Shown in pieces: positions 12,321 through 63,329 of a DNA stretch of 64,000 bases (within the stretch, counting starts at the first letter, position 1; the number at the start of each line of letters is the position of its first letter). This DNA comes from Owenia fusiformis (lineage: Eukaryota > Annelida > Polychaeta > Sabellida > Oweniidae): the NCBI GenBank assembly GCA_903813345.2, contig CAIIXF020000012.1, positions 24,006,184-24,070,183 of the forward strand, read 5' to 3'. A program made the position numbers and the translations under genes. The notes beneath the pieces were generated by a model, which was not told where the DNA came from, did no database searches, and saw only the letters and a list, made by a program, of their open reading frames with translations.

Positions 12321-13164
12321 CTCCTAGGGTCAGAGCCTAGTACACAAGATGATGAAAGTGACTCTCTTTTATAGAATCAAACTATGGGGAATGGTATCTG
12401 GGTTTGAACACTACCTAGTGCTTCAGGTCATAAACAACTCTCTTATCTAACTCAGATTCCTTTCTATTTATTCAGTTATACTTGCTTAAAATGTTTACTA
12501 GATTGTGCAGTGTTTTCAAAGAAAGATCACATTTATATTACTAAAATATCTGATTTATTATCTTTTACATAAGGCCATAAGGTAGATGTTTATATATTGT
12601 TTTTTCCCAAATATTCCATTTTCATGCTGATGCCCTAGACCTTTACATAAACCTGGAATTCGAGATATCAATCCACAACCTTTACATTTGATAGTGTTGT
12701 TTTACAAGATTGTGCCTTGTTTCAGGATTTCTATTTCTTGATTTGTACTAACTTAATCCCAGAGTGATTAAGTTATATTTAATGAGATTATGTTGTGTCA
12801 ATGAACTCCTACATACAAACTAAGGTAAACCATTACCACATAGTCATTGCTTATTATACTAATTTGGATGCTTTATTTTATTTTTTCAGAATCATGCTTA
12901 AATCCTGTTTTTATTGGGTTGAATACATAACTTCATAAAGAATGCCACTGATTATGTTTTATGTATGATCATCATGTCAAAATACATTGAATGATTGATT
13001 TAGTGGTGAGAAATGAGAAAGGGATGGTGTCAAAATGTTAGAGGTGTGAAATACATTTATAGATAACTTAATTTCTGGAGTGAAGTGATAAAGAATAATT
13101 TACTGACGATTAGTTGAAAAATTGAAGTGAAAAGAAAATCACATTTTTAAATTTTGTTATAATA

Positions 13165-13541
13165 TATCCTTTGCATTCGTTTGACTTCACTTCTTAAAAG
13201 AGAGCTTCGTCTTCACTCTTTCAAACTAAAATAGACCTGTGAACTCACTGCGCCAATCAGTGTTCGTCGGCCAAATTTGACTGACATTCTATATATGGGC
13301 ATTCCTTCTGACGTCATTGTTGAGCCTGGAATTGACCAATGACATGCGCATATTTAATTAGAACGCATTTGGCGTATGTTTCTTCAAGCTCGTTGATTGG
13401 TAGAAGAAAGGTCAGCGCGTAGGTCAGAAGTGATTTATTACCCAAACTGTCACCGGTACCCGTCGTGGGACGGGGCTACTAAACTGTAACATGGTCTCTA
13501 CTAGGCAGAGTGTAGTTTAACTAGACTCTGCACGCAGGGTA
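13165..13541 (-). mobile_element. Promoter-like 9-bp-TSD element, copy 1
   Basis: A 377-bp copy, reversed relative to the copies at 43263, 57403 and 62959, with ends TATCCTTTGC and GCAGGGTA. It is flanked by GTTATAATA on both sides (13156-13164 and 13542-13550). It keeps the CCAAT boxes, TGACGTCA, the TATATA block and a C/G box disrupted to CGTGGGACGGGGC. Non-coding. The family is discussed in the findings. Confidence 0.93.
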
Positions 13542-17846: not shown

Positions 17847-18212
17847 GCATAGATATGACAATTCATCATTGTTGTTGTACTTTTCAATTTGGCGAACTAC
17901 ATAATCTGTAATATCTCCTTGAGGCTGTGTACTAAACTGTACCTTAAAATAGAAATGAGTTCCTTGAAGCTGTGTACTAAACTGTACCTTAAAATAGAAA
18001 TGAGTTCCTTGAAGCTGTGTACTAAACTGTACCTTATAATAGAAATGAGTTCCTTGAAGCTGTGTACTAAACTGTACCTTATAATAGAAATGAGTTCCTT
18101 GAGGCTGTGTACAAAACTGTACCTTATAACAGAAATGAGTTCCTTGAGGCTGTGTACAAAACTGTACCTTAAAATAGAAATGAGTTCCTTGAACTTGCAA
18201 TTCTTGGAGCAA
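17847..18212 (-). CDS. Possible coding exon with in-frame 45-bp minisatellite
   Basis: On the minus strand a frame opens after a plausible 3' splice site (TGTATGTTTGCATCCAG, then TTGCTCC). It reads LLQELQV, then six or more 15-residue units of the type QGTHFYFKVQFSTQP, then GDITDYVVRQIEKYNNN, and stops at 17844-17846. The unit is 45 bp, so any frame without a stop stays open, and long frames appear on both strands. The array alone therefore is not proof of coding. The non-repeated flanks on both sides also read as ordinary protein in the same frame, and this is the main support. The 5' splice site is not clear (candidates GTACAA inside GAAAAGTACAAC, or GTAGTT). If real, it lies upstream of the exon at 15587. 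The alternative is an intronic minisatellite. No family recognised. Confidence 0.35.
17916..18193. repeat. 45-bp minisatellite, about 6 units
   Basis: Units share CTGTGTACTAAACTGTACCT and AATAGAAATGAGTTCCTTGA and start at 45-base steps (CTGTGTAC at 17925, 17970, 18015, 18060, 18105, 18150). Units differ at a few positions (AAAATAG/ATAATAG/ATAACAG, TACTAAA/TACAAAA), and similar variants are adjacent, as expected from stepwise expansion. Confidence 0.97.
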
Positions 18213-18219
18213 CTGGATG

Positions 18220-25239: not shown

Positions 25240-26730
25240 CTGTATATTTTACTTGGCTGAATATCTCAAGGATGTACCCTACTCTGTGTAAAGTGCTAAT
25301 ATAAGACAGCTGTTAAGTGATTGAAGAAGCTTTGTAAAATGTCCACCTTGAACATATTGGACCTTTAATTTGTTATGTTTAGGGGTCAGATCAAAATGTC
25401 AGTTTCTCGAAAAATGTTAGGAACCTCCTTCAACATCAAAACACAAATTAAATTGAAAAACTGAATACAAGTATCATACCAATTAACAAAATGGCATTCA
25501 ACCCCTTCATAGAATGTAATAATAAAACATGTACTAGCTGCTTTACACCCTCCCAAATACATAAATGTTTTTCAATAAACAATATCAATTTCAATAAACA
25601 TCACAATTTCAACCTGATCTCTTATTCTATGTACAATATGCTCGTCTACTAGTCTTCTGAACTGTCATCAAGGGTAGAAATGTTTCTGAATGATAGAACA
25701 TAAACACATTCCAGCTTGCAGCCAAAATCAATATATTCCAATATAGGATATCCCAGGCAGAAGATCAATGGGGATTACATTTTATATATTCAAGGATCTA
25801 ATCTGTTCAAAACATTAGAAATGTAATTTAGGATGGGACCATAAAGGAATGAATAGACTTCTAATGCTTCTATTTGAGATGATTGACCCTCCTTTCAATA
25901 GTATATAAACTTTAAGTGTTTGGTTTTGATTTCTGGTTTTCAATGTTGACCTTTGTACTTCCCCTTAATTCTTAAATACACTTCATGTGCACTACCATTA
26001 CATGTGCAATACCTTTAATATATGTGTAATACCATGATATGTGTAATACCATTTCATGCTGCTTCCTAGGTACATATATGCACAATCAAAGGGTGACCAC
26101 TGCATGACAGTTTATCCCCTGTAGTTGTGATGTAAAAAGACAGCAGTATAAAACCAAGTGGCAGCCTTATTTCCTACAAACAGCTGTCTTGGTAGTCTAC
26201 AAAACCTGGATTTGTAAAATCCAATAATTTCAATGTATTGCTTCATCTCTTGTGCTTACCAATTATGACATGGTTAATTAGTGTAAAAATACTCTTTTCG
26301 ATGGTTTGACTTAACTGCATCAAATAAAAGCTTCATTTACTGATTAAATATGTAATAAAATTACCAAATAGCCACTTCGCTCAGGATATACAGAAAGTGC
26401 AGAACATTGCATGTGTGTATAACTATAACATTACAAAATGCTGACAATGTAATACATAACATCAATACACTCATAATTCTTTAGAATTGTTTCACTAAAA
26501 TAACACAAATATTATACCAGCCAAAGAAACAGTCAAATTGATCGCTGATTCAGGATGTAAAAATATAGCTTTGGTTGACAGCTATTTATTTGGAATGTGA
26601 ATTAGACTAAGAAGAATTTTGATAAAAGTTATTCAGGGTTTCAAAATCTTGGCTTTCTATAGAAATAAGTAAGATCCAAAATAAACTCTGACACAGAATT
26701 ACATAATAATGATGTACAGAAACATGTTCT
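25240..26730. other. Non-coding stretch, nothing recognised
   Basis: AT-rich text with no bounded element. A short run of ATGTGTAATACCAT words lies at 25990-26055. Confidence 0.5.
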
Positions 26731-26735
26731 ATTAT

Positions 26736-27590
26736 TACATCCTATGCAGACAGAGCCTGTGGGAAATATTGGGTGGGGAGCAAATGAGCGGAGGGTGCGG
26801 AGCTAACGGTCATTTTTGAATTTAAATTTGGGATATTTCTAGAACTAAGCCGTTTTGGGACTTCAAATATACCAAGATATGTGTATTTGACACCAAATAT
26901 CAATACAATTGTGAAAATAGTAGCGCAATTCATTCTATAGCGACGCAGTGTGCCTTAAACATTTCCCAGACCTATATATTTTGAAATTATCCTTTTAATC
27001 CTGAGTCCCCAGCATTCATAAAAAATGATGTTCAAGGTACACTATCTATACAAATTATTTTTGCATCTTGGAAGCCAGGCAGTATCAATGTGATTTTATA
27101 AAAATTCGGAAATGTTTTTCAGATATGAGCCCCCTCTAAATATTGGGTGCGGAGCAGCTCCATAAACGTAGCTCCGCACCCAATATTTAGAGGGGGCTCA
27201 TATCTGAAGAACATTTCCGAATTTTTATAAAATCACACAGATACTGCCTGGCTTCCAAGATGCAAAAATAATTTGCTTGGGTAGTGTATCTTGAACACCA
27301 TTTTTTATGAATGCTGGGGACGCAGTATTAAAAGGATAGTCTCAAAATATATAGGTCTGGGAAATGTTTAAGGCATACTGCGTCGCTATAAAATGAATTG
27401 CACTACTATTTTCACAATTTTATTGATATTTGGTGTCAAATACACATATCTTGGTATATTTGAAGTCCCAAAACGGCTTAGTTTCAGAAATACCCCAATT
27501 TTAAATTCAAAAATGACCGTTAGCTCCGCACCCTCCGCTCATTTGCGCCGCACCCAATATTTCCCACAGGCTCTGTCTGCATAGGGTGTA
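26736..27590. mobile_element. Fold-back palindrome element, two 420-bp arms
   Basis: Arms at 26736-27155 and 27171-27590 are reverse complements over their whole length with a ~15-base centre (AGCTCCATAAACGTA). The two arms have equal length about the midpoint 27163, so there is no net length change between them. A modest number of substitutions is seen by eye. Outer ends are TACATCCTATGCAGACAGAG and its partner ending GCATAGGGTGTA, with TTAT on both outer flanks (26732-26735 and 27591-27594). The same small peptide frame appears in both arms (minus in the left, plus in the right), a trivial result of the symmetry. If transcribed it would form a long hairpin RNA. The transposon class is unknown; the ends could alternatively be read with a TA flank. 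Confidence 0.93.
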
Positions 27591-27599
27591 TTATATGCT

Positions 27600-29613: not shown

Positions 29614-30722
29614 AAACAGGAAAATGACATAAAAGTGATTAACTCATCAGATATGTAAGCCTAGATCAAAGGATATGAAAGAGCGTATATGTAGCTTTTC
29701 TTCAGAGCTATGAAGTCAAACTTTTACAAAGGGTATAAAATAAATGAATAGATGAACAAGAAGCTCATAGATGTAATCGGATGTGATTTGTGCCTACAAT
29801 AAGTTAACATTGATCTAATTTTGATTAAGAGTTCAGACATGTAATCTATAATGTTTATATATTGGTTAGTCCCTTACAGTTCAAAGCAGTCAGATCAATA
29901 CGCAGTAAAACCTGTCAACAGTGAACACTAGCAAAGATATTGATGTTTAAAGAGTTTACTACTTTGGAAGAGTTAATAAAGCCATCCAAAACATGTCCAA
30001 ACCCCTATAATCAATCTCCAATCTGTATAAAACAAAGGGATATAACTTGATGCAATGGTGAAAGGGGCTTGATAAAAGACTAGAAATTCTATATTGGTTA
30101 TCTTTTCAGATACAACCAATATCATATTACTGTTAATGAAAAGCTATTTTTATTCCATGTACTTACTAAAAATACATCTAAACAAATCTTATCAGATATA
30201 ATCAATATCATATTTCTGTAAATGAAAAGTTATTTGTATTACTTGCTAAAAATACATCTCACGAATCTTTAACTCATCCAAATGTAATCATTGTTATGAT
30301 TAGCTGAAGACTAATATTTTGACTTGGTCCCTAGTGATAGTGCAAAGAGGCCATAGCTAACCCTGAGATGACCCCCCTGTCATAAAAATGAAACTACAAA
30401 TAGGAAAACTATTTCTGACACCTTGCCAATGAGTTAAAACAATCTTGCACAAATATAGCAATCATTTCTGATCAAGTGCCAAAATATGAACAGATTTCAT
30501 GACATTTTAGAAAAATATAAATTTCAGCAATACTCTCAAGTACCTTGCACTCAGTGTCTAGTTATAAACTACCTCCCAGTAAAGAAAAAGCTCTCTTTTG
30601 AGAAGTCAGACAATATAAATGGTAATTCTCAAGGTATTTGGGATTTAGAGTCAGTTATAATATTATTGTATGGAAGCAATGTTTGAAGACTTCATAAAAA
30701 CAAGAACACAAATGTGTACAAA

Positions 30723-32359
30723 ATGTCCCCACCAAGTGGTGATCCCGTGAAATGGTTATCCTGAAAATGAGTAGACAAGACTTTACCAACACAATTTGAG
30801 GACGGAAAATCCAAAGTGGCCACCTTAAAATTAACCCAGAATGCCAAAAATTTAGTCAGTTCTAGATTTTCATACTAAGAACCACCCCTGAAAATTTGAA
30901 ATTGATCCGTCACACAGTTAACCAGAAAACATGTAAACAAGACTTTACAGACAAGATTTCAGGATGGAAAATCCAAAATGGCTGCCTTGACATTTACCAA
31001 GAATGTCAAAAAACTAATCTGTTTGTAGATTTTCATACTAAGAATCATCCCTGAAAATATGAAATTGATCTACCAAACGGTTCACCAGAAAACATGTAAA
31101 CAAGACTTTACAGACAAGATTTCAGGATGGAAAATCCAAAATGGCTGCCTTGACATTTACCAAGAATGTCAAAAAACTAATCTGTTTGTAGATTTTCATA
31201 CTAAGAATCATCCCTGAAAATATGAAATTGATCTACCAAACGGTTCACCTGAAAACGGGTAGACAAGACTTTACAGACAAGATTTTAGGACAGAAAATCC
31301 AAAATGGCTGCCTTAACATTTACGCAGAATGCAAAAAAAGTAATCAGATGTAGATTTTCATACAAAGAATCATCCCTGAAAATTTGAAATTGATCTATCA
31401 AACCGTTCTCCTAAAAACGCGTAGACAAGACTTTACAGGCAAGATTTTAAGACGGAAAATCCAAAATGGCTGCCTTGACATTTACCCAGAATGCAAAAAA
31501 ACTAATCAGTTCTAGATTTTCATACTAAGAATCATTCCTGAAAATTTGAAATTGATCTACGAAACAGTTCACCTGAAAACGAGTAGACAAGACTTTACAG
31601 ACAAGATTTTAGGACGGAAAATCCAAAATGGCTGCCTTGACATTTACCCAGAATGCCAAAAAACTAATGAGATCTAGATTTTTATACTAAGAATCATCCC
31701 TGAAAATTTGAAATTGATCCACCAAACGGTTCACCTGAAAACGCGCAGACAAGACTTCACAGACAAGATTTTAGGACCGAAAGATCCAAAATGGCCGACA
31801 ATAAAAAAGTCCTTATGAGTTTTTGCTGATTTCTTTTTACAAAATTATCACATATAACTACTGTTAACAATAAAGTAGGCTTTTACAGCAAAGTACATCT
31901 GAAATTATTTATAAAGCTACTAAATAGTTAAAGTATGAAAACTCAAAAACACCATTCAATATGATACAAAGTATTATCGCGCGCTAACTTTTCTTAAGAC
32001 ATTCAAAATGGCTGACATGACTGAGCTAGCAGGTCCAAAACCTAATCAGATCTAGAATGAAGTGAGCTGAACAAGATGTTAAAGTTTTAAAAGCAACTGT
32101 GAAGCAGTTTTTCTTAAAGTTTGCAGACAAGGATTTTAGCATTCGACTTCAAAATGGCCGACAGGAAGTAGGTAATGAGTTAATTTTTTTTCATCCACAT
32201 CTGTATGCACTCATAAGTTATCCCTGAAAATTTGAAGGTGATATCTGTAGCAGTTTTGGAGAAAACTGCCGGACGTACGGACAGACGGACAGACAGACGG
32301 ACAGACAGATGGACGCGCCTAGGCCGACAATATGGCCCCACACTATGTGGTGGGGACAT
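30723..32359 (+). mobile_element. Pearl/Helentron-like non-autonomous element B
   Basis: Starts ATGTCCCCACCA and ends TGGTGGGGACAT (12-base inverted ends), 1637 bp in all. It contains six full and two partial ~163-bp tandem units (30800-31800), a unique segment, an ACGG/ACAG microsatellite (about 32272-32312) and a terminal hairpin CCACA-CTA-TGTGG just before the right end. This is the typical pearl layout known from bivalves, including repeat units near 160 bp. Both this and the element at 22698 contain words of the type AAATGGC(T/C)G. No protein-coding capacity. Confidence 0.85.
30800..31800 (+). repeat. ~163-bp tandem repeats, six full units
   Basis: Unit starts (GGAYGGAAAATCCAAAATGG) fall at 30800, 30962, 31125, 31288, 31450, 31612 and 31774, spacing 162-163 bases. 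Units 2 and 3 are nearly identical, pointing to recent local duplication. The other units vary more. Confidence 0.96.
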
Positions 32360-35258: not shown

Positions 35259-35320
35259 CTGCAGATTATAAAGCAGTACAAGTACCGCCACTCTGCTTCT
35301 TTGGACTCTGAGGTATTATC

Positions 35321-35557
35321 ACTAGGCACAAATTTGACAAATTTTGACTTGGGAAACTAGGCACAAATTTTGACTTGGGAAACTAGGCACAACTTTTTCA
35401 AATTTTGACTTGGGAAACTAGGCACAATTTTTCAAATTTTGACTTGGGAAACAAGGCACAAATTTTTCAAATTTTGACTTGGGAAACTAGGCACAAATTC
35501 TTTTAAGTTTGACTTGGCAAACGAGGCACAAATTTTTCAAATTTTGACTTTGGGAAC
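35321..35557 (+). repeat. ~35-bp minisatellite, about 7 units
   Basis: Units of ACTAGGCACAAATTTTTCAA followed by ATTTTGACTTGGGAA. One unit lacks ~9 bases, and single-base variants are spread across the array. Confidence 0.95.
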
Positions 35558-35576
35558 TTCTTGTCTTACCTTTTGC

Positions 35577-35622
35577 ATTTATTCGACTTCGCTTCTCAAA
35601 AGAGATATTCATCTTCAGTGCG
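35577..35622 (+). repeat. Diverged end of the promoter-like element family
   Basis: TACCTTTTGCATTTATTCGA then CTTCGCTTCTCAAAAGAGA resembles the TACCCTTTGCATT...CTTCTTAAAAGAGAG end of the 13165/40890 copies, base by base with about 20% differences. The rest of the element is not recognisable downstream, so this is a solo end or an old, deleted copy. Confidence 0.5.
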
Positions 35623-40880: not shown

Positions 40881-40889
40881 GGCATCATC

Positions 40890-41261
40890 TACCCTTTGCA
40901 TTCGTTTGACTTCACTTCTTAAAAGAGAGCTCCGTCTTCACTCTTTCAAACTAAAATAAACCTGTGATCTCACCGCGCCAATCAGTGTTCGTCGGCCAAA
41001 TTTGACCGACGTTCTTTATATGATACATTCCTTCTGATGTCATCGTTGAGCCGGGAATTGACCAATGACATGCGCATATTTAATTAGAACGCTTTTGGCG
41101 TATGTTCCTTCAAGCTCGCTGATTGGTGGAAGGTCAGCGCGTAGGTCAAAAGTGATTTACCCAAACTGTCACCGGTACCCCTCGTGGGGGCGGGGCTACT
41201 AAACTGTAATATGGTCTCTACTAGGCAGAGTGTAGTTTAACTAGACTCTGCACGCAGGGTA
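40890..41261 (-). mobile_element. Promoter-like 9-bp-TSD element, copy 2
   Basis: 372 bp, reversed orientation, ends TACCCTTTGC and GCAGGGTA. It is flanked by perfect 9-bp duplications GGCATCATC (40881-40889 and 41262-41270). It keeps CCAAT boxes and the GGGGGCGGGGC box. The CRE is altered to TGATGTCA. Confidence 0.96.
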
Positions 41262-41269
41262 GGCATCAT

Positions 41270-43262
41270 CTGTATTAATGTTCCAGGCCCATAGCTAGAT
41301 TTTGCCAAGGGGGAGTGGGGGTTCACTTGTAACAATTTTGTCCAAAAATGGCCGAAATCATCAAGTGCACAGAATGGTGAAAAACTGCATGATTTTGAAA
41401 GAATTTTCAAGTGATCTCCCCAGCATTAGACAAACTGGGTGATGCACTTTGTGATGCACTTTGTTGAAAATCAGTTTGCAACATGTAAAAAATATGAAAT
41501 CCATGAATAATAACATATATAGTAAAACCTGTATATCAGAACACCTCTTTTATAAGAACCCCTCCCAAGTGAACACTTATATTCTCAGTCCCATGTTTGT
41601 CATCTCCCACTGACTCACAAGGAACCTTGAAATATGAACACATGTTAATCCATTGACCATGTACCAATCCCAGTAATGTTCAGATGAGACAGTTTTACTG
41701 TAGTTGCAGGATTTAGGACCCTTGATAAATAAAATGGAGAATAACACAGGGAAGCTGTCTTGCATGGTAAATGCATGACTAATATAGAAATAGAAAGGAT
41801 ATTGGTTATGAGGATCAGAGGATTGCAATATAGACTTGAGATATACCCTGCAATAGAGTCACTTTCACACCCTGGTTCATCAGTGAATATACTCGCCTCT
41901 GACAAAGACCAACCAATTAACAATTTGTCAATCAGCTAATCAGATAAAATCCAAATCACTGTCATATGCTACATAATTACACAAACACACAGAGAACTAG
42001 CTTCAAGCAACAAGCTCTGATTGGCTCAATCACTACAATTGTTCATCATTTATATAATAAAGAGGAAGATAATGTCAATCACTCTTGTCCAGGGTACTGC
42101 TTTCTACAAGAAGAGCACAGACATGAGCTTTATTGATCTATTAATGTATTTCATTAATACACTAGACACACAGAATTCATTCCAGAGCTAACATTCAGTG
42201 TCTAAGGTGCCATGGTGAACCTGCTTGATTTACAACTCTCATAATTACAGTAAATATTTTTTGCATTTCTCTGAAATGAAGTCTATTAGGGATGTGGAGA
42301 GAGATGATGCAGCACCAGGTGATGGTTAGCTTATAAGAATTAGAGATTTCCTTAGACCCCACAATAAATCCCCATTGGCTAGCTAAATTACTTTCTGACT
42401 TTTACAGATTTTACAGCTAGTAACATCTTAATGAACTAAAATTATGCTCTGGAGGCCCTTTATGGTCAGCTTGAATGTGAAATGAAAATACAGCTACTGA
42501 AAGGTAGAAAATATAGTGTTGAGGTTCTCAGACTAGATAATATATTCTGCTTGTAATAAGCTAGACCAAAATAATTATTTAATGTTTAATTGAAAGAGTT
42601 TGGATTGAGCTCTTGAGAATAGTACTCAGATCCAAAATTTCAGATTTCTAGGATCTGTGCTGATTTTGACATACACAACCTGTTTTATCAACGAAGAATG
42701 TCAGTAGTCTTGCATCAAGCCACTGTTACCCCCTGCCCTTCATACATTCCCAGCCTGTATCAGGGGAAGAACAAGTGGTTCAAGAACAAGACTTATAAGT
42801 ACATGTATTCATATATGGATGGTCCGGAATCATACAGTAGAGATAAATGTACTGGAGAGTAAAAAGGTTATTCTGACCTGAAGTCTACAGGAATAACCTG
42901 ATTATAAATACAGTATGCTCCGATGCATGATGCATCATTCTATTACAGCAGTGTGAGGGCCAATCTGTAGATGAAGTGCCCTTCATAAGAATGTAACTTC
43001 ATTTTCATTCTTTTACTTTGATCTTTATCTAACCCATATATCTAACCATAATGATGAAATCTGAAATCAAAACACTGATTTTTATCGCCTTTGGGTATGG
43101 AACTTAATATTCCTACCTCATTCAGACTGTAACAAAAGACCAAAAAACTGTATTTGATAATGTCAAGGTTTTATGTAAAATCCTCTGTAATTATCAGAGG
43201 GCCATATGACTAGATGGAAGTTCAGGGTAGACATTCAGTGAGTCACCCATGCACTGTACCTC
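41270..43262. other. Non-coding stretch with MITE fragments
   Basis: Holds a CCCATAGCTAG fragment (41284), a GTGATCTCCCCAGCATTAG fragment (41412) of the CAGTGATCTCCC family, and an AGTAAAACCTGTATATCAGA fragment (41520). Minus-strand frames at 41577-41923 show no motif. Confidence 0.5.
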
Positions 43263-43640
43263 TACCCTGCGCGCAGAGTCTAGTTAAACTACACTCTGCC
43301 TAGTAGAGACCATGTTACAGTTTAGTAGCCCCGCCCCCACGACGGGTACCGGTGACAGTTTGGGTAATAAATCACTTCTGACCTACGCGCTGACCTTTCT
43401 TCCACCAATTAGCGAGCTTGAAGAAACATACGCCAAATGCGTGCTAATTAAATATGCGCATGTCATTGGTCAATCCCGGGCTCAACGATCATGTCAGAAG
43501 GAATGACCATATATAGAACGTCGGTCAAATTTGGCCGACGAACACTGATTGGCGCGGTGAGTTCACATGTTTATTTTAGTTTGGAAGAGTGAAGACGAAG
43601 CTCTCTTTTAAGAAGTGAAGTCAAACGAATGCAAAGGGTA
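43263..43640 (+). mobile_element. Promoter-like 9-bp-TSD element, copy 3
   Basis: 378 bp, ends TACCCTGCGCGCAG and GCAAAGGGTA. It is flanked by perfect 9-bp duplications CTGTACCTC (43254-43262 and 43641-43649). The 64-codon plus-strand frame inside is not a gene. One CRE base differs (ATCATGTCAG). Confidence 0.96.
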
Positions 43641-43649
43641 CTGTACCTC

Positions 43650-44672: not shown

Positions 44673-44679
44673 GTTTGAT

Positions 44680-45435
44680 TTTGCTGCTTAAAAGAGAGCT
44701 TCATCTAGCTATTATACTAGGCTGTGACACACATAGGTACATTAACACTCTTTCCCTTCCCCGACCACAAACAACCATTGAGACACAGTTTACACTATCT
44801 CCTTAGGGGGGGGGAGATAAAGAGGGACGATGATTAAACTGAATGACTATCTCTAGAGATTCTTTTGTCTCAATTCATATAAAACAAATGATTAACAACA
44901 AAAAATATTGTAAGAGTAGAAAATCAACAATACACCCCCAGGTAGCACACTTAAACATATATTGTTTTATTGACTTTCTGATTTAAATGACATATTATTT
45001 ACTGATCATAATCAATAGACAACAGATAAAAATACAAATACATATTTCCATAATATTACTTTATAAAATGAACCTATGAACAAACACATCCTGGTAGCAG
45101 TACTACTGAACATAAGAGCAACTACACTCTACTATACCTAACCCCTAGAAATGCATAAGATACTTTGTTATTAGTCTAATTGTATTGTTTAGTGTATTTT
45201 TGAAAGTACCTTATTAACATCTATTGAACATCCGATAAACCATTCATAAAGAACAGACACATAAAAACAAATAACATAATCATTACCAATAAGCCTAATG
45301 GGTTGCTTATGAACACCAAATGCAAGGTATAGTAGAGTGAACTACTTGGTTTATGATTTACTCCTGAACTTGTGTTAAAGGGATAATAACCTCAAGTAAA
45401 AACTATGATCCATCAGAATAATAAGTCTATAATCA
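44680..45435. other. Non-coding stretch, nothing recognised
   Basis: Begins with a TGCTTAAAAGAGAGCTTCAT word (44685) and then AT-rich text with no gene. Confidence 0.5.
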
Positions 45436-45677
45436 AAAACATGACCCGGGTATGAGCGACGATCTTCTTATGCATCGGCAGATATATTGGAATTAATTTT
45501 GAGGTATTGGATCTTCACCTGGATTATGGAGGTCGCCATAACCTACCTATGAATATTCATGAGCGGCGTCACTGCGACTCGACAAATTCCAGCATTTTGA
45601 TTGGCCCGAAAAATGCGCATGCGCAATTGTAGTGGGGCGGCCACATTGAAAAATATTACGAACTTCTTAACAAGAAA

Positions 45678-48969: not shown

Positions 48970-50285
48970 CAAATACTTCTTCAAGTTGCAAATGCTGCTT
49001 CAATTTGCAATGTTTCAACAAACTGATTAAAAGTGGCAATGTGCTTGAAACTACTGACCCCCTCCTTCAGATTGACACTCCTTGACAGAACAAGCAAGGT
49101 AGACACTTATGTAACAATGAAAATGTTTTACAAATAGGCTAGAGAGCTATTGACTAAAGTATATTGGTTTAACTGTAAACCAATTTAGCCCAGACCCTTA
49201 AATCAGGATTATACTATCAAAATATCAAACATGGATTGTGAATTATGCCGGAAAAAGTTGACTGTTGTGCTCGTGCTTTATATAATTGTAAATCAAATTT
49301 CCAAGTGAGAATATTGAATTAAGGCATAGATTTCATTCTTTACATGAAGTGTTTTAGATATCGAAGTTCGGAATACAAAATCTTGTTAATGATAAATAAA
49401 TTTCATATCTATTTAAATTAAGATAGAACTCTGGGGATAATAGTGCTTTATCTAACATGTTTATGGTAAAGTCATATGTGTGATATTAAATAACTTATAT
49501 TGAAATAAAAATATCTCCATGTCTTCTTCACCAAATTAAACTGTCAACATTTTTAGAAAGACATAAGAGCTTTAAATGGTTTAAGGGAATGTTTGGTTTT
49601 GATAACAAATTGATTTTTAAAGAACATTAGGTTACTTCCTGGAATAACAGGCGGGATAAAAAGCCTCAGAAAAATAATGACATTTTCTCTAGTTGTTTTG
49701 AGAAATAACCCCAAGTGATTGTTCCAACACAGAAATATATATGAACAGAAACTGGCATATAACAAACCCTTACAAGAGACACTATGAGTACTCTAGTATC
49801 TATAACAACAATGCTCCTAGGGAGAATAGATGTTAGCTGATTAGGATTTCATAAAGGATCCATTATGGAATGACCAGACAAAGGAATTCTGTAATTATGA
49901 ATTTTCAGTTTAAATAATGGAAAATCCTTGTTTTAATTAACATAAACTTCAAATTGAGTGTTTTGAGATGACCCCTTTACCTCACTTAATATTGTAATCA
50001 GCTGTAGCTGTAGCATAGGACTGTTTACACAACTATAGAATTTATCCTATGTGACCATGATTGATATGGTGGTTTTTAAGGTAGGCGGATTGAAGTGAGA
50101 TATCTGGTGGTTTTTAAGATAATGAGGGCTGTGCTTATAAGCTAAAAGCACAGGTACCTCCAGTCCTCCATCCTATATTCTAGAGGCTAGAAAGAGGAAC
50201 AGAGTCTGCAATTTGCAATACCAGATGAAAAGAAACCACTGAATCAAAATTCTTGATTAATTCAGAGTCCTTCTTTATTTACCGC
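48970..50285. other. Non-coding stretch, nothing recognised
   Basis: Ordinary AT-rich text. The minus-strand frame at 49553-49765 has no motif. Confidence 0.5.
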
Positions 50286-50290
50286 CCAAT

Positions 50291-50733
50291 AGTAAAGGCT
50301 GTAGAACCCATAATGATCAAATCAAACCATAGTAAAGGCTGTAGAACCCATAATGATCAAATCAAACCATAGTAAAGGCTGTAGAACCCATAATGATCAA
50401 ATCAAACCATAGTAAAGGCTGTAGAACCCATAATGATCAAATCAAACCAAAGTAAAGGCTGTATAATCCATAATGATCAAATCAAACCATAGTAAAGGCT
50501 GTAGAACCCATAATGATCAAACCAAACCGTTTAGTAAAGGCTGTAGAACCCATAATGATCAAACCAAACCGTTTAGTAAAGGCTGTAGAACCCATAATGA
50601 TCAAATCAATCCATAGTAAAGGCTGTAGAACCCATAATGATCAAATCAATCCATAAGGCTGTAGAACCCATAATGATCAAACCAAACCGTTTAGTAAAGG
50701 CTGAAGAACCCATAATGATCAAATCAAACCATA
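50291..50733 (+). repeat. 40-bp minisatellite, 11 units
   Basis: Unit AGTAAAGGCTGTAGAACCCA then TAATGATCAAATCAAACCAT. Four 42-bp variants or junctions carry CCAAACCGTTT, one unit is shortened (CCATAAGGCTG), and the last is diverged. Adjacent units share variants, indicating recent slippage or unequal exchange. Confidence 0.97.
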
Positions 50734-51001
50734 GTTAAGTTGCAGAACATAAAATGAATGAAAGCAATAGGAGGAATGAGCTAATTATCCCTTTTATCAA
50801 GAGCAACATCTAAACAATCAATATATTGCTTTGAATAATGAAAAGGTGATTAAACAACTAAAGCAGCAATATAACATGAGATTTTACATGGATCATTGAA
50901 TAAATCTAATATACTGTCAGGTCAATGTTCGAGCCATGTGTATAATTTCACATTAAATTCTTGTATGTTTGGGTCAAGTTGTACCATGTTATGCATTCAA
51001 G

Positions 51002-53807: not shown

Positions 53808-54025
53808 TTGCCTTGTTATTTATTAAGTAGTCCCCTTTACCTTTAAGCTTTTTCAGAAACAGTAAAGGCTGAGTAGGCATCAATATAATCTAATCTACAA
53901 TTACCCTGACCAAGAAAGTATCAGTTCAATGAAGCTTTCTGTGAGATATAAAGGCACACTCTTCAAAAACGATAAATCTACAGCAGTCAGAGATCTCAAT
54001 GCACAGTTGATAAAATCTGTTCACC

Positions 54026-54042
54026 AGATAGAAGTAGGCATA
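54026..54042 (+). repeat. LINE target-site duplication, left
   Basis: AGATAGAAGTAGGCATA, identical to 55035-55051 on the other side of the insert. Confidence 0.95.
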
Positions 54043-54955
54043 TCTTGCCTCAATTTTACAAAGATTTACTCCATGCTTGGAGTATTCTTGGAGGCTCAGA
54101 ATCCAAAATTGATAACATAACATTTGCAGAAATTAGACAAATGGTGATATGGCACAATAAAGACATAACTTTCAATAACAAGTGTTTGTATTTTGAAAAC
54201 TGGATAAATTCAAATATATTATATGTTAATGATCTTATGTGTACCCAAGATGAAATTCTTCATAAGCTTAAATCTAGGGTCAATTGGATGGCAGAATATA
54301 TAACTGTTAAGCAATCTTTGCCATTTCAATATAGAGTTAAAATATTTAGTGAGGCAAGCAGATGTACATATGTTAATACAAATGTAAGTTTAAGATTTTA
54401 TGACAGTAAATTGAAGCATTATAGATTTTTGGATAAACATGCAAGTTCTAGAGACATATATTCAATCCTGTTGGAACATATAGCAACTAAAACATATTTG
54501 GAATCATTTTGGATTAATCTTTGTGAAATTCAAAATAGTCAAATGCTGTTTCAACAGACTTGGATACTTTTAAAGCAATCCAAAAATAAAAAAGTGGCCA
54601 ATTTTAAATACAAACTTTTACATTATATTTTACCATGCAAACAATTACTTCTAAGATGGAAAATAAGTGTTAACGACAAGTGTGATATTTGCGGACAAGT
54701 AGAAGACTATAAACATTTGTTCTTTCAATGTCATAGAGTACTTAATGTAATAGACTTGAAAATTATATTTTAGATCATTTTAAAATTGAATTAAGCTTGA
54801 AAAAGTATAAAACTCTTGTCTTTGGCTATAAGGTACAAGACACTAACTATACTTATTTTAATGAATGGTTAAACAACTTATGGTACGTTATATTTGTAAA
54901 CTATTGTAATAATGTTCAAGAATTGAAATTATATCATTTTTCACAAATATTGTAA
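54043..54955 (+). pseudogene. C-terminal part of LINE ORF2, frameshifted
   Basis: The frame is open from the left junction and reads LPQFYKDLLHAWSILGG, a motif seen after the polymerase domain in many LINE ORF2 proteins. About 180 residues later comes a zinc-knuckle region, KYKLLHYILPCKQLLLRWKI then CDICGQVEDYKHLFFQC, typical of the zf-RVT domain at the C-terminus. The main frame stops at 54773. The natural C-terminus (LKKYKTLVFGYKVQ, then FNEWLNNLWYVIFVNYC) continues in another frame from about 54757 to a stop at 54955, so a small indel broke the ORF. The endonuclease and the polymerase catalytic core are absent because of 5' truncation. It cannot code for an active enzyme. Confidence 0.9.
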
Positions 54956-55059: not shown

Positions 55060-57390
55060 ATAGCTACTCAAGACCTACTTATACTTAAAGTCCTTCGACT
55101 CCTTAGCAAATTTGACATCTCTCTATACACTACCTACAAATGTGTTTTAATATCTTGGGCCCCATTTACAACCCAACTTCACAAGAGAATATGATGTAGA
55201 TATGGGGGGGGGATTTTTAGAATTTGTGTAGTAACAGATCCAAGCATTCAACCAGACTGGCTTTCCATTCTTGGAATCTAACCATTTTGCTACCTGCCAA
55301 ACAGAAAGATGTGATAAATATCAGAGTATGGTAAGATAAAACAAATATGACTTAAAATGGACCTTGTTGGTATATCTTTACATGGTGATTTTGAGTGACC
55401 AAATCCTTATAGGCTAACTTACACCTTACTAACACCTCACCCCTCTGAAGCTTTAGTTTTGCGTTAAGACCCTTTATATACCCTTTTTCAATTTCCCTGC
55501 AAAGGGGAGGGATATATAGGGTCTTACAAGACTTTGGAGGTAAAGAAGATATACAGATGGGGTCCAGATGCTAGATGCACTAGTTACACAATAATGAGAG
55601 TTGTTGAGTGTTTATCAATCCCTTGCTTTTATAATTATATAATCAATGTATTATTGACAATTGATATGCTTTATTGACAATAACAGCTTTGATCATTTTA
55701 CGCTCTTATAATCAGTGTGAAGCTTATGATTCAACCATAAAGTAATTTCTGTGATCAAACATTATCCCTCTTAATTCTTAATTCATTGACATTTAAAAAG
55801 CAAAAAAGAACTGATTTTTAAAACAAAAGTGATAAAACACTACCCTGATAATTACATAATAGACATTTTTCTTTTATATAAGGACACCCAGCCCCCCCCC
55901 CCCCTCCTTCAAAATGGTTAAATATTGAGAAAAATTAGGAAGATCGCTAACATAGAACTTTACATAGAACATGGTATAATAAAAGTGTTCACATTATTTG
56001 AAGCGTTTAACTTTGTGAGGTGCTCACATATCTGCCTTATCACATGTCAACTTAATAAATTTTATTTTTACTTTGAGAAATTATTTGAGTTGACCCCTCT
56101 GCACTGACAGCCTAGTGAAGATATAGATTAATACACCCTGTTAAATTAGATTAGAAACATCCTTCAAATGATGCCATAATGACCATTCTATAATGATGAA
56201 AGTTTCACAGACACCTTAATCAGCATATAATTATGGGGGGTGTACATGTGATTAAATGTCAAGAGGATCACAGAGAATTTTCATCCAGTTTTCGGTTTGA
56301 GATTATCTGGAAGAGTAAGGCTCATATTTGTAAGGTCTGTCTGCTGTTATATTGGCTCACAAATCTCATTGTTGTTGCTCTCCCTTGCAGAAAATATCAC
56401 TGGATCTTTATACTTAAAATTCAATTATATTAGCAACTATTATATTAAGCAAGGAATTAAGTTTGTAGTTAACATTAGATGACTAAGTATGTCGGAAACT
56501 CAGGCATCTGCTTAAGGTGTTAACTTGTTACAGAGAAAATGACATGAAATGAGCATGGTCTAAGAGGGTATTTTACCAGAGGGTTTATAGAGTATTGATG
56601 TCTTGATTTGCTATACTTAAATGTCATACTCTGCAGACAATTCACCTTTTTCAATGATAGCAGTCCTGATCCAGGAGATGGGAGGGGCATCAGTCTGAAG
56701 CAAAGCCAACAAAAATTCATCCGGGACCTATGTTAATTAGGTTACACTTAAATTTGATGATATGTCAACTCTAAAATAGATGTCACATTACCCTACATTA
56801 GCCTTTTGAGCATTAATTTTTGAATTTATTAATTTTTGAATTTTGTGTGAGGTAGGGAGGATATCTTGCTTTAAACTATTTGTTTTGCCCCCCCCCCCCC
56901 TCGTATAGCTATCCCATACCTCGCTATCTGCCCCAAAGTATTCATACTCATATGATGGCGAACTATGAGCCCACATGGCCTAGGTGTGACAGCTCCATAA
57001 AAGGGAAAATATTATATACCTTTTGAATCATAATTATTTCAAATTTAAACACAGAGTAGCTTAATATGCCTCCTAAATAACACATATTTCTATTGTAAAT
57101 TGCAGGTTTTAGATATTACGGGGGTTTGCCCATCTTTGTTCGCTCGCTTCCATTGGTTGCAGTAAAGACTAAACGTGCAAAGGCAGCTTTTGCCACCTGT
57201 GCCAAATACCAGTAAAAGAACGAGATGTATAATGTAAAGCTTACATGACATCAACCAATCAAGGTAGCTGATGTTCTCGTAACGGATGGACATTTCTCAC
57301 TAGTGATGATTAAATAATGAATAATATGTGAGATCAGTTGGTCTACAGTGAGGAAATTGAATAAATATTCATAATTGATCCTAGTGGGAT
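55060..57390. other. Non-coding stretch, nothing recognised
   Basis: AT-rich with poly(C) runs at 55892-55904 and 56888-56900 and an ACAGAAAGATGTGATAAATA word at 55301. Short frames at 55925-56482 and 56520-57293 show no motif. Confidence 0.5.
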
Positions 57391-57402
57391 TCAGACACAC
57401 TC

Positions 57403-57778
57403 TACCCTGCGTGCAGTCTAGTTAAACTACACTCTGCCTAGTAGAGACCACATTACAGTTTAGTAGCCCCGCCCCCACGACGGGTACAGGTGACAGTTTG
57501 GGTAATAAATCACTTTTGACCTACGCGCTGACCTTTCTTCCACCAATCGGCGAGCTTGAAGAAACATACGCCAAATGCGTTCTAATTAAATATGCGCATG
57601 TAATTGGTCAATTCCGGGCTCAACGATGACGTCAGAAGGAATGACTATATATAGAACGTCGGTCAAATTTGGCCGACGAACACTGATTGGCGCGGTGAGT
57701 TCACAGGTTTATTTTAGTTTGAAAGAGTGAAGACGAAGCTCTCTTTTAAGAAGTGAAGTCAAACGAATGCAAAGGGTA
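57403..57778 (+). mobile_element. Promoter-like 9-bp-TSD element, copy 4 (best example)
   Basis: 376 bp, ends TACCCTGCGTGCAG and GCAAAGGGTA, flanked by perfect duplications GACACACTC (57394-57402 and 57779-57787). In order inside: an imperfect hairpin near the left end (CAGTCTAGTT facing AACTACACTCTG); GC box GCCCCGCCCCC (57466-57476); CCAAT (57543-57547); ATGCGCAT; ATTGG (57603-57607); full CRE TGACGTCA (57627-57634); TATATATAG (57646-57654); the 20-bp near-palindrome GTCGGTCAAATTTGGCCGAC (57658-57677); and ATTGGCGCGG (57686-57695). No ORF. Confidence 0.97.
57627..57654 (+). promoter_or_regulatory. CRE and TATA-like pair inside copy 4
   Basis: TGACGTCA (the full CREB/ATF palindrome) followed 12 bases later by TATATATAG. 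CCAAT and GC boxes lie upstream, which is the spacing expected of a compact RNA polymerase II promoter reading rightwards. Promoter activity is inferred. Confidence 0.5.
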
Positions 57779-58311
57779 GACACACTCCAAAGCAATATTA
57801 AAAAAATATATGCTAGATGTATTTTTTAATATTTTAGTCTTGCTTCCAGCCCCTTTCCTCTTAAACACCTCTCCTTTAAGTGAGGTAGATTCTAGTAGAT
57901 ACTATTAGGATCTGCTACTGCTATTCTCTGGTATTTGCAATCCTGTCTTTTACATCAAAATTTCCATGTGATGAACTTGAAGATGAAGTCGAAGCATTTT
58001 AGAAGAGGATGAAAAAGACTGGACTTTATACTTTATCAGTAGGCATTAAATAACATGATAGATACAACGGAATTGAAAGAGATAACATTCTTGTAATAAA
58101 ACTTTGATTAGCAGCTAATCTCCAATGATCAATATGTGCTGGAGCAGTGCTATAATTCACCTTTTCATCATTTTCTCCAATTAACTCTACAAATCTAAGG
58201 ACCATACTGTGAAAGGCTCAGTTCTGTTATTGTGAACCTTAGAAAGTATGTAGATGTATAGTATTCAGAATGTTCCCTCCCTGGTGAATATACCTGACCA
58301 CCTGTATCTAG

Positions 58312-59031
58312 TGTTGGACCCCTGGGTCGGTCCAATTCATTATTAAATTGTCTAATTTTGTAAAGAATGACAAACTAGTCGATTCCTTAATACTCATAAT
58401 TTATTTAATAATTTTAAAGTTTAGTCCAAACAGTTACAAATTACAATACATCTTCACAATCTAAAGCCAAGCCGAAAAGGTGCTACAAATTCTTTACAAC
58501 TGCCTTTTATAGTAAGACAGAAGGAAGAAAACTATAAAATACAATGCAATTAATCATTTATAAACATCTCACAAATAAAGAAATAGGAATATTCTCAAAG
58601 AATATTCTCTATCATTTATAAACATCTCACAAATAAGGAATAAAGAATATTCACAAGGAATATTCTCCATCATTTATAAACATCTCACAAATAAGGAATA
58701 AAGAATATTCACAAGGAATATTCCCTAAGAATAAAGCAATAAATTTAGAATGACTGACTCAGGGTCAGAAAGAGTCCAAGGAATAAAACATTTAAAAGAT
58801 AAACACATATAAACAAATCTTACTAATGGATTTTTTCTCAAAGGTCAGCTACATGTCATAGAAGGAATAAGCAATTAAAAATATTCTCAACTGTCAACAA
58901 CATGACATAGTGTGAAGAAGTCAAGGAATAATGTATCTCTGGCAAGGTAGGGCAAGAAGCCAAAAATGAAGAAACTAATAAATCAATCAGTCCTAATATG
59001 AACTAAAAACCCTAAAATAAAATGTCCAACA
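58312..59031 (-). repeat. LTR (3' LTR in element orientation)
   Basis: 720 bp with 8-base inverted ends TGTTGGAC/GTCCAACA. An AATAAA signal occurs on the minus strand near 58400. It contains a 3 x 58-bp tandem repeat at 58553-58726. Confidence 0.95.
58553..58726. repeat. 3 x 58-bp tandem repeat inside the LTR
   Basis: Units start ATCATTTATAAACATCTCAC at 58553, 58611 and 58669. The first unit differs (AAAGAAATAGGAATATTCTC) while units 2 and 3 are nearly identical. The same array is in the other LTR at 61498-61671. Confidence 0.95.
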
Positions 59032-59032
59032 C

Positions 59033-59048
59033 ATCACCCTCCCCAGTT
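59033..59048 (-). other. Polypurine tract of the LTR element
   Basis: On the minus strand ACTGGGGAGGGTGATG lies directly before the 3' LTR. A purine-rich tract at this place primes plus-strand DNA synthesis in LTR retrotransposons. Confidence 0.75.
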
Positions 59049-60023
59049 CAAATTTACTCCTGGAAATTTTACACTGATTGAAACCTTACAATTGTTACTA
59101 ATAACTGTCACACATAAAAAAACAATATATCAACTTCAAATTGTACAACTTAAGTAAAATTACATCTGCATAATTAAATCAATCTACAATAAAAGTTTAG
59201 GCTATTACCACTTTAAATGTCAAATCACCATTTAACAACATTCACTGAAGGTCTCAATTCTTCCACCTGTACAGTGGTGGGTCAATTAGGATAAAATCCT
59301 TATCTTTAACAAGTATGTTCAGTTTCAGGGATCTATTACCAATTTACCAGAGCACTGTCTTCTAATGTTCTCAGTGTGCCAACTTAAGGTCATTTAAACA
59401 CAATATAAAATTGTCTATATAAAATCTAAGGGCACACAATCAAATAAGGAAACAGTAAATTTTCATTGCACAAAGTTGCAAAATCATTAGAAACAAATGT
59501 CCAAAATATTTCCTTAAATAAAACTACAACCAAAATTGTCAAAACATCAATTACAGCGTTTCTCTGCTCCTCCAAAATATTTTCATGTGCACTTTAATCG
59601 ATCAATGTCACTTGCAAGATCCTTACACAGTAGTGTGAATATTCAGTGTTCTCAAAGGGGCCCTTCACCCAACAGCTAGGTTACTCTCCCAAAATATGAA
59701 TCACTGCACTTTATACCCGTACTCCAAAATGGCCATTCAGAATCTTGCATAATCGATCACAAAAGACAACAGCTACACACATATTAGTCGAACACAGTCG
59801 CTTCAAAAACAATTGATCGCATCGGCATCACACACATAATCATTGTTCTCCATATATTTAGTCTGACACTGAGGTTATTAGATACGTCGCTGTTTGGTCA
59901 CTCTGCATTGAGATGTGTCAGATGCGCACAAAACACACCGATTTAGAGTCTGCAAGTAGAAAGGCCTTGGAACCTTATAACACAGCCCTTGCCAACAACA
60001 AGGATACCTTGAACATTGTCATA

Positions 60024-60203
60024 CTAATTGTTCCTCGATATCTCCTCTAGATCACCTATCATCATCAGGTAAACAGTTAACATAATACTCAGATACTTTC
60101 TGGGCCCTACTCTATCTGAGTCAAAACAAAATATTTCCGGAAATCGATCATCAATCACATCTGCGTGATTGGAACTTGGGTACCACTCAATACTCCAAAA
60201 CAT
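60024..60203 (-). other. 59-codon ORF inside the LTR element
   Basis: The minus-strand frame starts MFWSIEWYPSSNHADVIDDR and ends before a stop at 60024. Composition is ordinary and it is the most protein-like piece of the interior. It could be captured or decayed sequence. No family recognised. Confidence 0.2.
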
Positions 60204-61240
60204 TCAGCTCTCCCTTGGCTGAAGTCACCAACAAAAGTCAGGTATAGGCATACTCGTCTATATGCCTTTCTACAAGATATGGGCTGATATACGAATTCTA
60301 CAAGTGTAACGACTTGTCAAGAACCACCAGCTTACATGTCTCTACCCGATGTAGCACAATAAAACTCAAAATCCCTGTACAATGAGGAATGTGCCCTCTC
60401 ATTGCTATCGGTCTTCATGAAGCAACTTCTATATCCCATATATCAAATTGCTATCTCCATGATGCAAGGTCCTCAAAACAAAAGTCATAATAAGCAGAGA
60501 CACTTAACATCTCTGATACCACAGTGATTGTTCCTTACTTGACATCACACATAAATCGACTATATGGTTATGCAATGTCTCGTCTCTGAGTCCATTCAAC
60601 TATGTGAAGCTGGATATTGAAGCAATTCATATCCCGAGTTGACATCTTCAGATATGTAAACACATAAAACGAGTACTTTATCCAAAAGTCTATCTTGTTC
60701 ACAAGAATATATCCTTTAATTTTGAGAAATGTCCGGGTCCGTCCAATCAAATCCAACATCAAATACATGAGCCTGACAACTCGTTTTCAGTTCTGATAAA
60801 ATTGTTCAGCATTGTCTCAAAATAATAGCATCCTAATCATGTGCAACAATCTCTTAGAACACTTCCAAAGCAGCCATACTTTTTCCTGCTTTTCTCTCAA
60901 AATTTTCCAAGTTCAAATTTTACAAAACAAAATAATGGTCACTGAAAGTTCATCAGCTGGCTTGCTGATAAATAGCAACTGAAGCAATGGTCAGTAAGTC
61001 CATTTGTTTACCTCAATCAAAGCAACTCAAAATAATGTTCAATCTTAGTTTCTTGTTTACATCATATTTCCAGATCTAAATATTCCAATCCATCTGTTTA
61101 TGAATCAATAGATCAATTTGATCAGTTCCAATCCTAAATAATACATTCACTGAATTCGGTAGCGTTTTTCAATCAAAAGCATGTTAAAGTCCGTAATTAT
61201 AAGTCTCCAGAAATCCTTACGAAATGTTATATAAAATTCC

Positions 61241-61255
61241 ACCAGGCTGCCACCA
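61241..61255 (-). other. Primer-binding site of the LTR element
   Basis: The minus strand reads TGGTGGCAGCCTGGT one base after the 5' LTR. It is complementary to a tRNA 3' end ...GCTGCCACCA, which fits animal tRNA-Leu of the type ending GCTGCCA plus CCA. It fixes the element on the minus strand. Confidence 0.8.
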
Positions 61256-61256
61256 G

Positions 61257-61976
61257 TGTTGGACCCCTGGGTCGGTCCAATTCATTATTAAATTGTCTAA
61301 TTTTGTAAAGAATGACAAACTAGTCGATTCCTTAATACTCATAATTTATTTAATAATTTTAAAGTTTAGTCCAAACAGTTACAAATTACAATACATCTTC
61401 ACAATCTAAAGCCAAGCCGAAAAGGTGCTACAAATTCTTTACAACTGCCTTTTATAGTAAGACAGAAGGAAGAAAACTATAAAATACAATGCAATTAATC
61501 ATTTATAAACATCTCACAAATAAAGAAATAGGAATATTCTCAAAGAATATTCTCTATCATTTATAAACATCTCACAAATAAGGAATAAAGAATATTCACA
61601 AGGAATATTCTCCATCATTTATAAACATCTCACAAATAAGGAATAAAGAATATTCACAAGGAATATTCCCTAAGAATAAAGCAATAAATTTAGAATGACT
61701 GACTCAGGGTCAGAAAGAGTCCAAGGAATAAAACATTTAAAAGATAAACACATATAAACAAATCTTACTAATGGATTTTTTCTCAAAGGTCAGCTACATG
61801 TCATAGAAGGAATAAGCAATTAAAAATATTCTCAACTGTCAACAACATGACATAGTGTGAAGAAGTCAAGGAATAATGTATCTCTGGCAAGGTAGGGCAA
61901 GAAGCCAAAAATGAAGAAACTAATAAATCAATCAGTCCTAATATGAACTAAAAACCCTAAAATAAAATGTCCAACA
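61257..61976 (-). repeat. LTR (5' LTR in element orientation)
   Basis: 720 bp. I found no difference from the copy at 58312-59031 when reading the two side by side. Confidence 0.95.
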
Positions 61977-61980
61977 CTAG

Positions 61981-62945: not shown

Positions 62946-62958
62946 GGGGTAGAGTCCA

Positions 62959-63318
62959 TACCCTGCGTGCAGAGTCTAGTTAAACTACACTCTGCCTAGT
63001 AGAGACCATATTACAGTTAAGTAGCCCCGCCCCCACGACGGGTACCGGTGACAGTTCGGGTAAATGACTTTTGACCTACGCGCCAATCAGCGAGCTTGAA
63101 GAAACATACACCAAATGCGTTCTAATTAAATATGCGCATTTCATTGGTCAATTCCGGGCTCAACGATGACGTCAGAAGGAATGACCATATAAAGAACCTC
63201 GGTCAAATTTGGCCGACGAAAACTGATTGACGCGGTGAGTTCACAGGTTTATTTTAGTTTGAAAGAGTGAAGACGAAGCTCTCTTTTAAGAAGTGAAGTC
63301 AAACGAATGCAAAGGGTA
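62959..63318 (+). mobile_element. Promoter-like 9-bp-TSD element, copy 5
   Basis: 360 bp, ends TACCCTGCGTGCAG and GCAAAGGGTA, with flanks TAGAGTCCA and TGGAGTCCA (8 of 9 matching). It lacks a short block around the CTTTCTTCCACC region present in copies 3 and 4. CRE TGACGTCA and the GC box GCCCCGCCCCC are intact. Confidence 0.94.
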
Positions 63319-63329
63319 TGGAGTCCACA

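Follow-up and report, generated by a model that had tools for sequence, protein, structure and literature searches.

The mobile promoters of LTRs and of the B2 SINE are retroelements, and their function has been tested. MITEs derived from MULEs are short and protein-less, occur in several copies, and show internal deletion down to the ends; they usually have clear inverted repeats. hAT elements duplicate 8 bp of their target, integrases give duplications of 4–6 bp, and LTRs have TG..CA tips.

MULEs characteristically make duplications of 8–11 bp and have TIRs of 14–500 bp, and groups without TIRs exist (PMC6446971). Table 1 of that paper lists the Platyhelminthes group Curupira with a TSD of 9 bp and no TIR, and also mollusc and cnidarian groups without TIRs, for which the duplication length is not indicated. 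Merlin elements make 8- or 9-bp duplications and have 5′-GG tips and TIRs of 24–462 bp; in one Merlin family the two ends differ strongly (PMC8101967). In Repbase, a non-autonomous element is assigned when its duplication has the same length and its first 11 bases align with no more than one mismatch (PMC4455052). LTRs are called ready-to-use mobile promoters in the title of a reference cited by PMC8232201.

We analyzed a family of short dispersed elements in a window of 64,000 nt, the whole stretch of DNA under study. Like the promoters borne by LTRs and the B2 SINE, these elements have Pol II promoter vocabulary within a dispersed repeat; unlike them, they appear to be a DNA transposon, and their promoter is a putative one. 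With the MULE-derived MITEs they share shortness, absence of a protein, presence in several copies, and internal deletion down to the ends, but their inverted repeat is only 6 bp long. They resemble the animal MULEs without TIRs in their 9-bp duplication, as in Curupira, and in having no long inverted repeats (PMC6446971, Table 1); they differ in that those groups have a MULE transposase, whereas none was seen in the window. This comparison covers duplication length and inverted repeats. The 8- or 9-bp duplications of non-autonomous Merlin elements and the strongly unlike ends of one Merlin family are also similar, yet TACCCT tips with a 6-bp inversion are unlike the GG tips and the TIRs, 24 bp or longer, of those elements (PMC8101967).

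Copies, target duplications, and related ends

The window contains five full-length copies (c1–c5). By blastn, identity to c4, the copy found initially, is 95.5% for c3, 94.4% for c1, 93.7% for c2, and 91.0% for c5.

13165..13541, minus strand: c1, 377 bp; 9/9 target duplication GTTATAATA at 13156..13164 and 13542-13550
40890..41261, minus strand: c2, 372 bp; 9/9 target duplication GGCATCATC at 40881..40889 and 41262-41270
43263..43640, plus strand: c3, 378 bp; 9/9 target duplication CTGTACCTC at 43254..43262 and 43641-43649
57403..57778, plus strand: c4, 376 bp; 9/9 target duplication GACACACTC, left 57394..57402, right 57779..57787
62959..63318, plus strand: c5, 360 bp, with deletions relative to c4; 8/9 duplication TAGAGTCCA/TGGAGTCCA at 62950..62958 and 63319-63327

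The edges of the five-copy alignment are sharp: identity ends at TACCCT and AGGGTA, one tip base being altered in c1 (TATCCT on the plus strand of the window). Inverted tips of 6 bp are thus present in four of the five copies; they fall short of the 14–500 bp of MULE TIRs, but MULE groups without TIRs exist. An extended inverted repeat gave P = 0.02 when the tips were included and P = 0.15 when they were excluded (2000 Markov resamplings), so the inversion is not significant beyond the first six bases. All resampling controls (duplication scan, motif cluster, and end inversion) were first-order Markov resamplings, not exact shuffles.

Other duplication lengths fail for c1–c5: at 5–8 and 10–12 bases, every copy shows at least two mismatches. 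At the base composition of the window, the chance per site is 9e-6 for a 9/9 match and 2e-4 for a match of at least 8/9. A length of 9 bp lies within the 8–11 bp given for MULEs (PMC6446971). The first and the ninth duplicated base vary between sites yet match within each site of all six members (c1–c5 and the shorter c6, below), and we rejected a hAT element on this ground. No consensus among the six 9-mers was evident by eye, six sites being too few for a test. A search of the window with the joined flanks of c1–c6 found no empty site.

We scanned the window for TACC...GGTA pairs lying 40–6000 bp apart whose flanking 9-mers mismatch at one base or none. Six pairs were found, against a mean of 0.75 expected from 20 first-order Markov resamplings. 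They were c2–c5, a pair at 55841-57504, which we took as chance given the 0.75 pairs expected per resampling, and a new pair at 30541-30624; c1 was missed owing to its altered tip. The new pair delimits a sixth member:

30541..30624, plus strand: c6, 84 bp, from the duplication scan, nhmmer, and pairwise alignment; 8/9 duplication ACTCTCAAG/ATTCTCAAG at 30532..30540 and 30625-30633

The duplications are therefore 9/9 in four of the six members and 8/9 in two (c5 and c6). The first 45 nt of c6 resemble consensus positions 1–47 and its last 47 nt the final 53 consensus bases, with an overlap of 8 nt; nhmmer recovered the left end (E = 0.015) and the right end (E = 0.0022), adjacent and in order. 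No part of the consensus beyond the outer ~50 bp at either end aligns to this member, which has no promoter body and is clearly more diverged than c1–c5. Blastn with c4 gave three further short matches in the window, all to the right end. With nhmmer, three right-end relics were retained:

35567..35617, minus strand: right-end relic of a related element, nhmmer E = 2.4e-8
44673..44706, minus strand: partial right-end relic, nhmmer E = 1.1e-4
29676..29735, plus strand: right-end relic that terminates in AAAGGGTA, nhmmer E = 2.8e-4

These E values come from a model of the right end (E < 1e-3); a full-length model gave only 0.003 for two of the three relics. No 9-bp duplication was found for them within 2500 bp upstream, and weaker right-end matches (E of at least 0.08, for example, 26291-26336 and 18808-18852) were dropped. 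We infer from the six members and the relics that c1–c5 look like a single burst within a broader, older family with common ends. Two source lineages are hinted at within the burst: c1 and c3 have two substitutions in common, and c2 and c5 one substitution and a 3-bp gap. Another gap in common, of 4 bp, was left uncounted because it falls within the larger c5 deletion. A tandem array of 35-bp units (35303-35579) lies within ~10 bp of the relic at 35567-35617, and other tandem arrays occur at 30698-31795 (unit ~162 bp), 50249-50768 (~40 bp), and 17871-18230 (~45 bp).

The initial annotation had described a transposon family of five copies at these positions, with 9-bp duplications that share no consensus and with only about six inverted terminal bases. 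These points held, the absence of a consensus as judged by eye from six sites, and the 84-bp member adds to the support. The TACCCT...AGGGTA tips that it gave for every copy are found in four of the five, c1 departing by one base. It had missed c6 and the three relics.

Hairpin z values, which we set aside, were −2.0 for the left end, −0.3 for the right end, −2.3 for the stretch after the TATA box (see below), and +0.6 for c6. The left end contains one near-palindrome:

62969..62995, plus strand: 27-bp near-palindrome inside the left end of c5, seen as an nhmmer opposite-strand self-match in all five copies, shorter in c4

It was not recovered in c6. The subterminal word CTWCACTYT, which occurs twice in the consensus and 12 times in the window and is absent from c6, was dropped as a candidate.

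The copies encode little. Frames of at least 55 aa lying wholly inside them reach 72 aa (c3) and 67 aa (c4), and those that cross an edge reach at most 74 aa. No transposase gene was found inside the copies; the c4 frame had no Pfam match and no relative in the protein collection searched. Neither a transposase nor a longer relative with the same ends was seen within the 64-kb window. The Pfam scan, which covered 10 of the 204 window frames of at least 55 aa, gave one match above the cut-off, zf-RVT, outside the copies. This match (E = 1.3e-8) lies in a 265-codon frame at 53976-54770, a non-LTR retrotransposon relic; the RT-like ORF had no match in the protein search. Exact patterns of the right end, middle, and left end had no match in viral contigs, and the right-end pattern had none in prokaryotic genome contigs; both results carry little weight, since the host is not expected in either collection. 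Rfam at the gathering threshold gave no match and ARAGORN no tRNA, which together with the fixed duplication length argues against a SINE. Among the papers listed by our literature searches, we saw no description of the family, which does not establish that it has never been published.

Promoter-like words in the body

We read the words found in the body by their usual promoter meanings and spacing. Along the consensus, in the orientation of the element, they come in this order: GC box (66), CCAAT (143), ATGCGCAT (~192), ATTGG (203), TGACGTCA (227), TATA box (~248), and a second ATTGG (286). In c4 they are placed as follows:

57466..57475, plus strand: GC box GCCCCGCCCC; in four of five copies (lost in c1), nowhere else in the window
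57543..57547, plus strand: CCAAT, with further ATTGG at 57603-57607 and 57686-57690
57592..57599, plus strand: ATGCGCAT; in all five copies and at two other places in the window
57627..57634, plus strand: CRE octamer TGACGTCA; confined in the window to three of the five copies (c1, c4, and c5)
57648..57654, plus strand: TATA box TATATAG, aimed at the right end; TATA[AT]AG in all five copies
57695..57700, plus strand: GTGAGT, splice-donor-like, downstream of the TATA box; GTGAG[TA] in all five copies

The motif list of the initial annotation thus stands in every copy for ATGCGCAT and the TATA box, but only in three copies for TGACGTCA and in four for the GC box. Its three CCAAT boxes are the CCAAT/ATTGG total of c1–c4, whereas c5 has two, and the TATA letters that it gave, TATATATAG, are those of c4 only: c1, c3, and c4 have TATATAG, and c2 and c5 have TATAAAG. 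The 20-bp near-palindrome GTCGGTCAAATTTGGCCGAC proved as described, with 9 of 10 arm pairs matching by eye; it is exact in c2–c4, and c1 and c5 each depart from it by a single substitution.

When the consensus was resampled 2000 times with a first-order Markov model, three CCAAT boxes, a CRE, and a TATA box never occurred jointly; the test is generous because the motifs were selected with the sequence in view. In slices of 376 bp taken from the window, the combination was present only over c1 and c4, not over c2, c3, or c5. CCAAT lies 15–75 bp upstream of TATAWA at 27 places outside the copies; with a CRE-like word added, three copies and one place outside (45993) have the combination. About 125 bp of the element remain between the TATA box and the right end at which it aims. 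ATG frames running through the right end into flanking DNA have only 9–20 codons, and GTGAG[TA] after the TATA box could act as a splice donor. A host-promoter-like spot, in which ATTGG, ATGCGCATGCGCA, and GGGGCGG cluster with several CpGs, lies at 45600-45640, with an ATG at 45678; it might serve as a nearby standard of comparison for a real promoter.

Motif columns have 11/285 changed cells versus 31/1065 in the rest of the middle (consensus 51–320; five copies, low power). Three of the 11 changes hit TATA columns and leave a TATA box; if these are forgiven, the count is 8/285. The central proposal of the initial annotation, a mobile Pol II promoter, therefore fared unevenly: the motif cluster is unlikely by chance, but its motifs are not preferentially kept and c6 does without the body. 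We conclude that the cluster is real and promoter-like in its letters but looks like a passenger.

The CpG observed/expected ratio is 1.14 for the consensus (22 CpG) versus 0.354 outside the copies, where TG and CA stand at 1.28 and 1.21 (window 1-64000). CpG depletion with raised TG and CA is a mark of methylation and points to a methylated genome. An animal host is suggested by this depletion and by the motif vocabulary, not by a sequence match; the non-LTR reverse-transcriptase relic does not decide the matter. Other CpG-dense stretches also occur outside the copies, with 23 CpG per 376 bp at 23101, 22 at 46161, and 21 at 19561. We do not take the retained CpG to prove that the promoter is unmethylated: transitions affect 8/220 CpG sites versus 8/625 other C/G sites, which are too few. 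Retention says little about a promoter because the insertions look young (see below). Controls for CpG decay were too thin for calibration: kept CpG, CpG versus TG or CA, and CpG versus other numbered 8/1/3 in the arms of a long palindrome, 4/9/8 in the 162-bp tandem array, and 175/39/19 summed over ten copy pairs, and seven other pairs had 0–2 kept CpG each.

Ends less changed than the middle

Against the majority consensus, the five copies carry 46 substitutions in 1890 cells. Changed cells number 3/500 in the outer 50 bp of each end versus 43/1390 in the middle, about five-fold less (Fisher P = 0.001), with the 50-bp limit picked after seeing the data, five copies compared, and cells treated as independent. 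Columns with any change, gaps counted, are 5/100 at the ends versus 57/278 in the middle (P = 1e-4), and changes private to a single copy are 3/498 versus 35/1364 (P = 0.005). The P value for private changes depends on the end length chosen: 0.42 at 20 bp, 0.07 at 30, 0.014 at 40, 0.005 at 50, 0.013 at 60, 0.017 at 70, and 0.046 at 80. When CpG sites are left out, the contrast between ends and middle weakens to P = 0.035. The middle is itself uneven, with 23 changed cells, mostly gaps, in 121–150, while 151–210 and 301–330 are as quiet as 31–60. The contrast is good but not overwhelming.

Mutation after insertion should strike ends and middle equally. The shortage of changes at the ends therefore suggests that the source copies already carried most of the differences seen in the middle and that sources with altered ends did not jump. 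It also suggests that the insertions are young, with a divergence of ~1% or less. The single mismatch among the 45 duplicated base pairs of c1–c5 agrees with young insertions. Because the ends are least changed and c6 kept the ends only, the mobile unit seems to be defined by its ends, with the body as an apparent passenger. Since the ends, which are needed for jumping, are the most constant part, this is probably an ordinary hitch-hiking transposon family.

Origin of the family and alternative readings

The initial annotation held that the family fits no standard class. However, MULEs that combine 9-bp duplications with short or absent inverted ends have been recorded, among them the animal group Curupira (PMC6446971, Table 1). 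The best reading is a non-autonomous cut-and-paste DNA transposon most like MULEs with short or no inverted repeats, a provisional assignment that draws on duplication length and the weak inverted ends. We give a probability of roughly 0.6 to a protein-less cut-and-paste family, most plausibly an internally deleted MULE derivative, that is moved in trans. A transposase encoded elsewhere would bind the two unlike ends, ~50 bp each with only the 6-bp tips in common, and join them to the target with a 9-base stagger, and host fill-in would produce the 9-bp duplications. The parent would be a longer MULE with short or no inverted repeats, from which internal deletion gave the present element. The left ~330 bp would then be the 5′ region of the parent, with a promoter aimed inward, fused to the last tens of bases of the right end; the promoter would aim out of the right end only because the intervening gene was lost, and gene capture would be unnecessary for this anatomy. 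In c6 the deletion would have gone further and kept the ends alone, which fits a transposase that needs only the two ends. The promoter may still fire into flanking DNA at some sites, but it is probably not what keeps the family spreading. We consider it rather unlikely that, in a CpG-depleted and probably methylated genome, every gene-less copy has a working, CpG-rich promoter of the TATA/CCAAT/CRE kind with a splice donor aimed out of the right end, so that a recent burst would have seeded many promoters with ~50 bp per end sufficing for movement.

The family could instead be a non-autonomous DNA transposon of a superfamily other than MULEs, either Merlin or one undescribed, a possibility that we regard as doubtful but worth keeping in view. 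Merlin too makes 8- or 9-bp duplications and includes a family with very unlike ends, but its 5′-GG tips and TIRs of 24–462 bp are at odds with TACCCT and a 6-bp inversion (PMC8101967). hAT, at 8 bp, does not fit, given the first and ninth bases that match within each site. Another reading, compatible with a transposon, is that the family is kept since its insertions drop a working Pol II promoter, which would transcribe out of the right end and perhaps splice from the GTGAGT donor into host exons. The motif combination absent from 2000 resamplings speaks for it, as do a CRE octamer and a GC-box decamer confined to the copies within the window, a TATA box and GTGAG[TA] in five of five copies, and the high CpG ratio of the consensus. 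We nevertheless think it unlikely: the motif columns are kept no better than the rest of the middle, the CRE is lost in c2 and c3, the GC box in c1, and one CCAAT in c5, the body-less member also has a 9-bp duplication, the right-end ATG frames are short, and CpG retention is weak evidence in insertions that look young.

The middle might also be the promoter of a host gene, acquired between transposon ends as in a Pack-MULE. The body and the spot at 45600-45640 both use CCAAT, TGCGCAT, and GC-box words, and the ends-only member shows that the body is separable; yet the body has no similarity to any other part of the window, the three extra hits all being to the right end, and the promoter of a transposase gene would look identical, so we rate such a capture as improbable. 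It is extremely improbable that the copies are solo LTRs, that is, promoter-bearing 370-bp LTRs remaining after recombination. The TATA box with upstream CCAAT and CRE and the short matching tips are LTR-like, but the duplications are of 9 bp, the tips are TA..TA rather than TG..CA, the 84-bp member has both ends and its own duplication, and a pair of LTRs elsewhere in the window shows TG..CA tips with a duplication of 4 bp. That pair belongs to a probable LTR retroelement of ~3.7 kb at 58310-61977, whose 723-bp stretches (58310-59032 and 61255-61977) are 100% identical and by eye look like LTRs that have TG..CA tips and a 4-bp duplication, CTAG. It is a very recent insertion, with an interior that has no open frame of at least 110 aa.

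If the copies of the MULE-like family are active promoters, the family, inserted five times in 64 kb, would be to DNA transposons what LTR promoters are to retroelements, and the full body and the 84-bp ends-only member would form a natural series that sets the needs of jumping against effects on neighboring genes. If they are inactive, the family still offers a clean case of unlike ends combined with a 9-bp duplication, which would help to assign similar orphans when its transposase comes to light.

An element of another family lies at 26733-27593. It is a long palindrome with 423-nt arms, 94% complementary, around 15 nt, with tips TACA(T/C)CCTATGCAGAC; by eye it has no 9-bp duplication but possibly TTAT, and it is of the foldback type.
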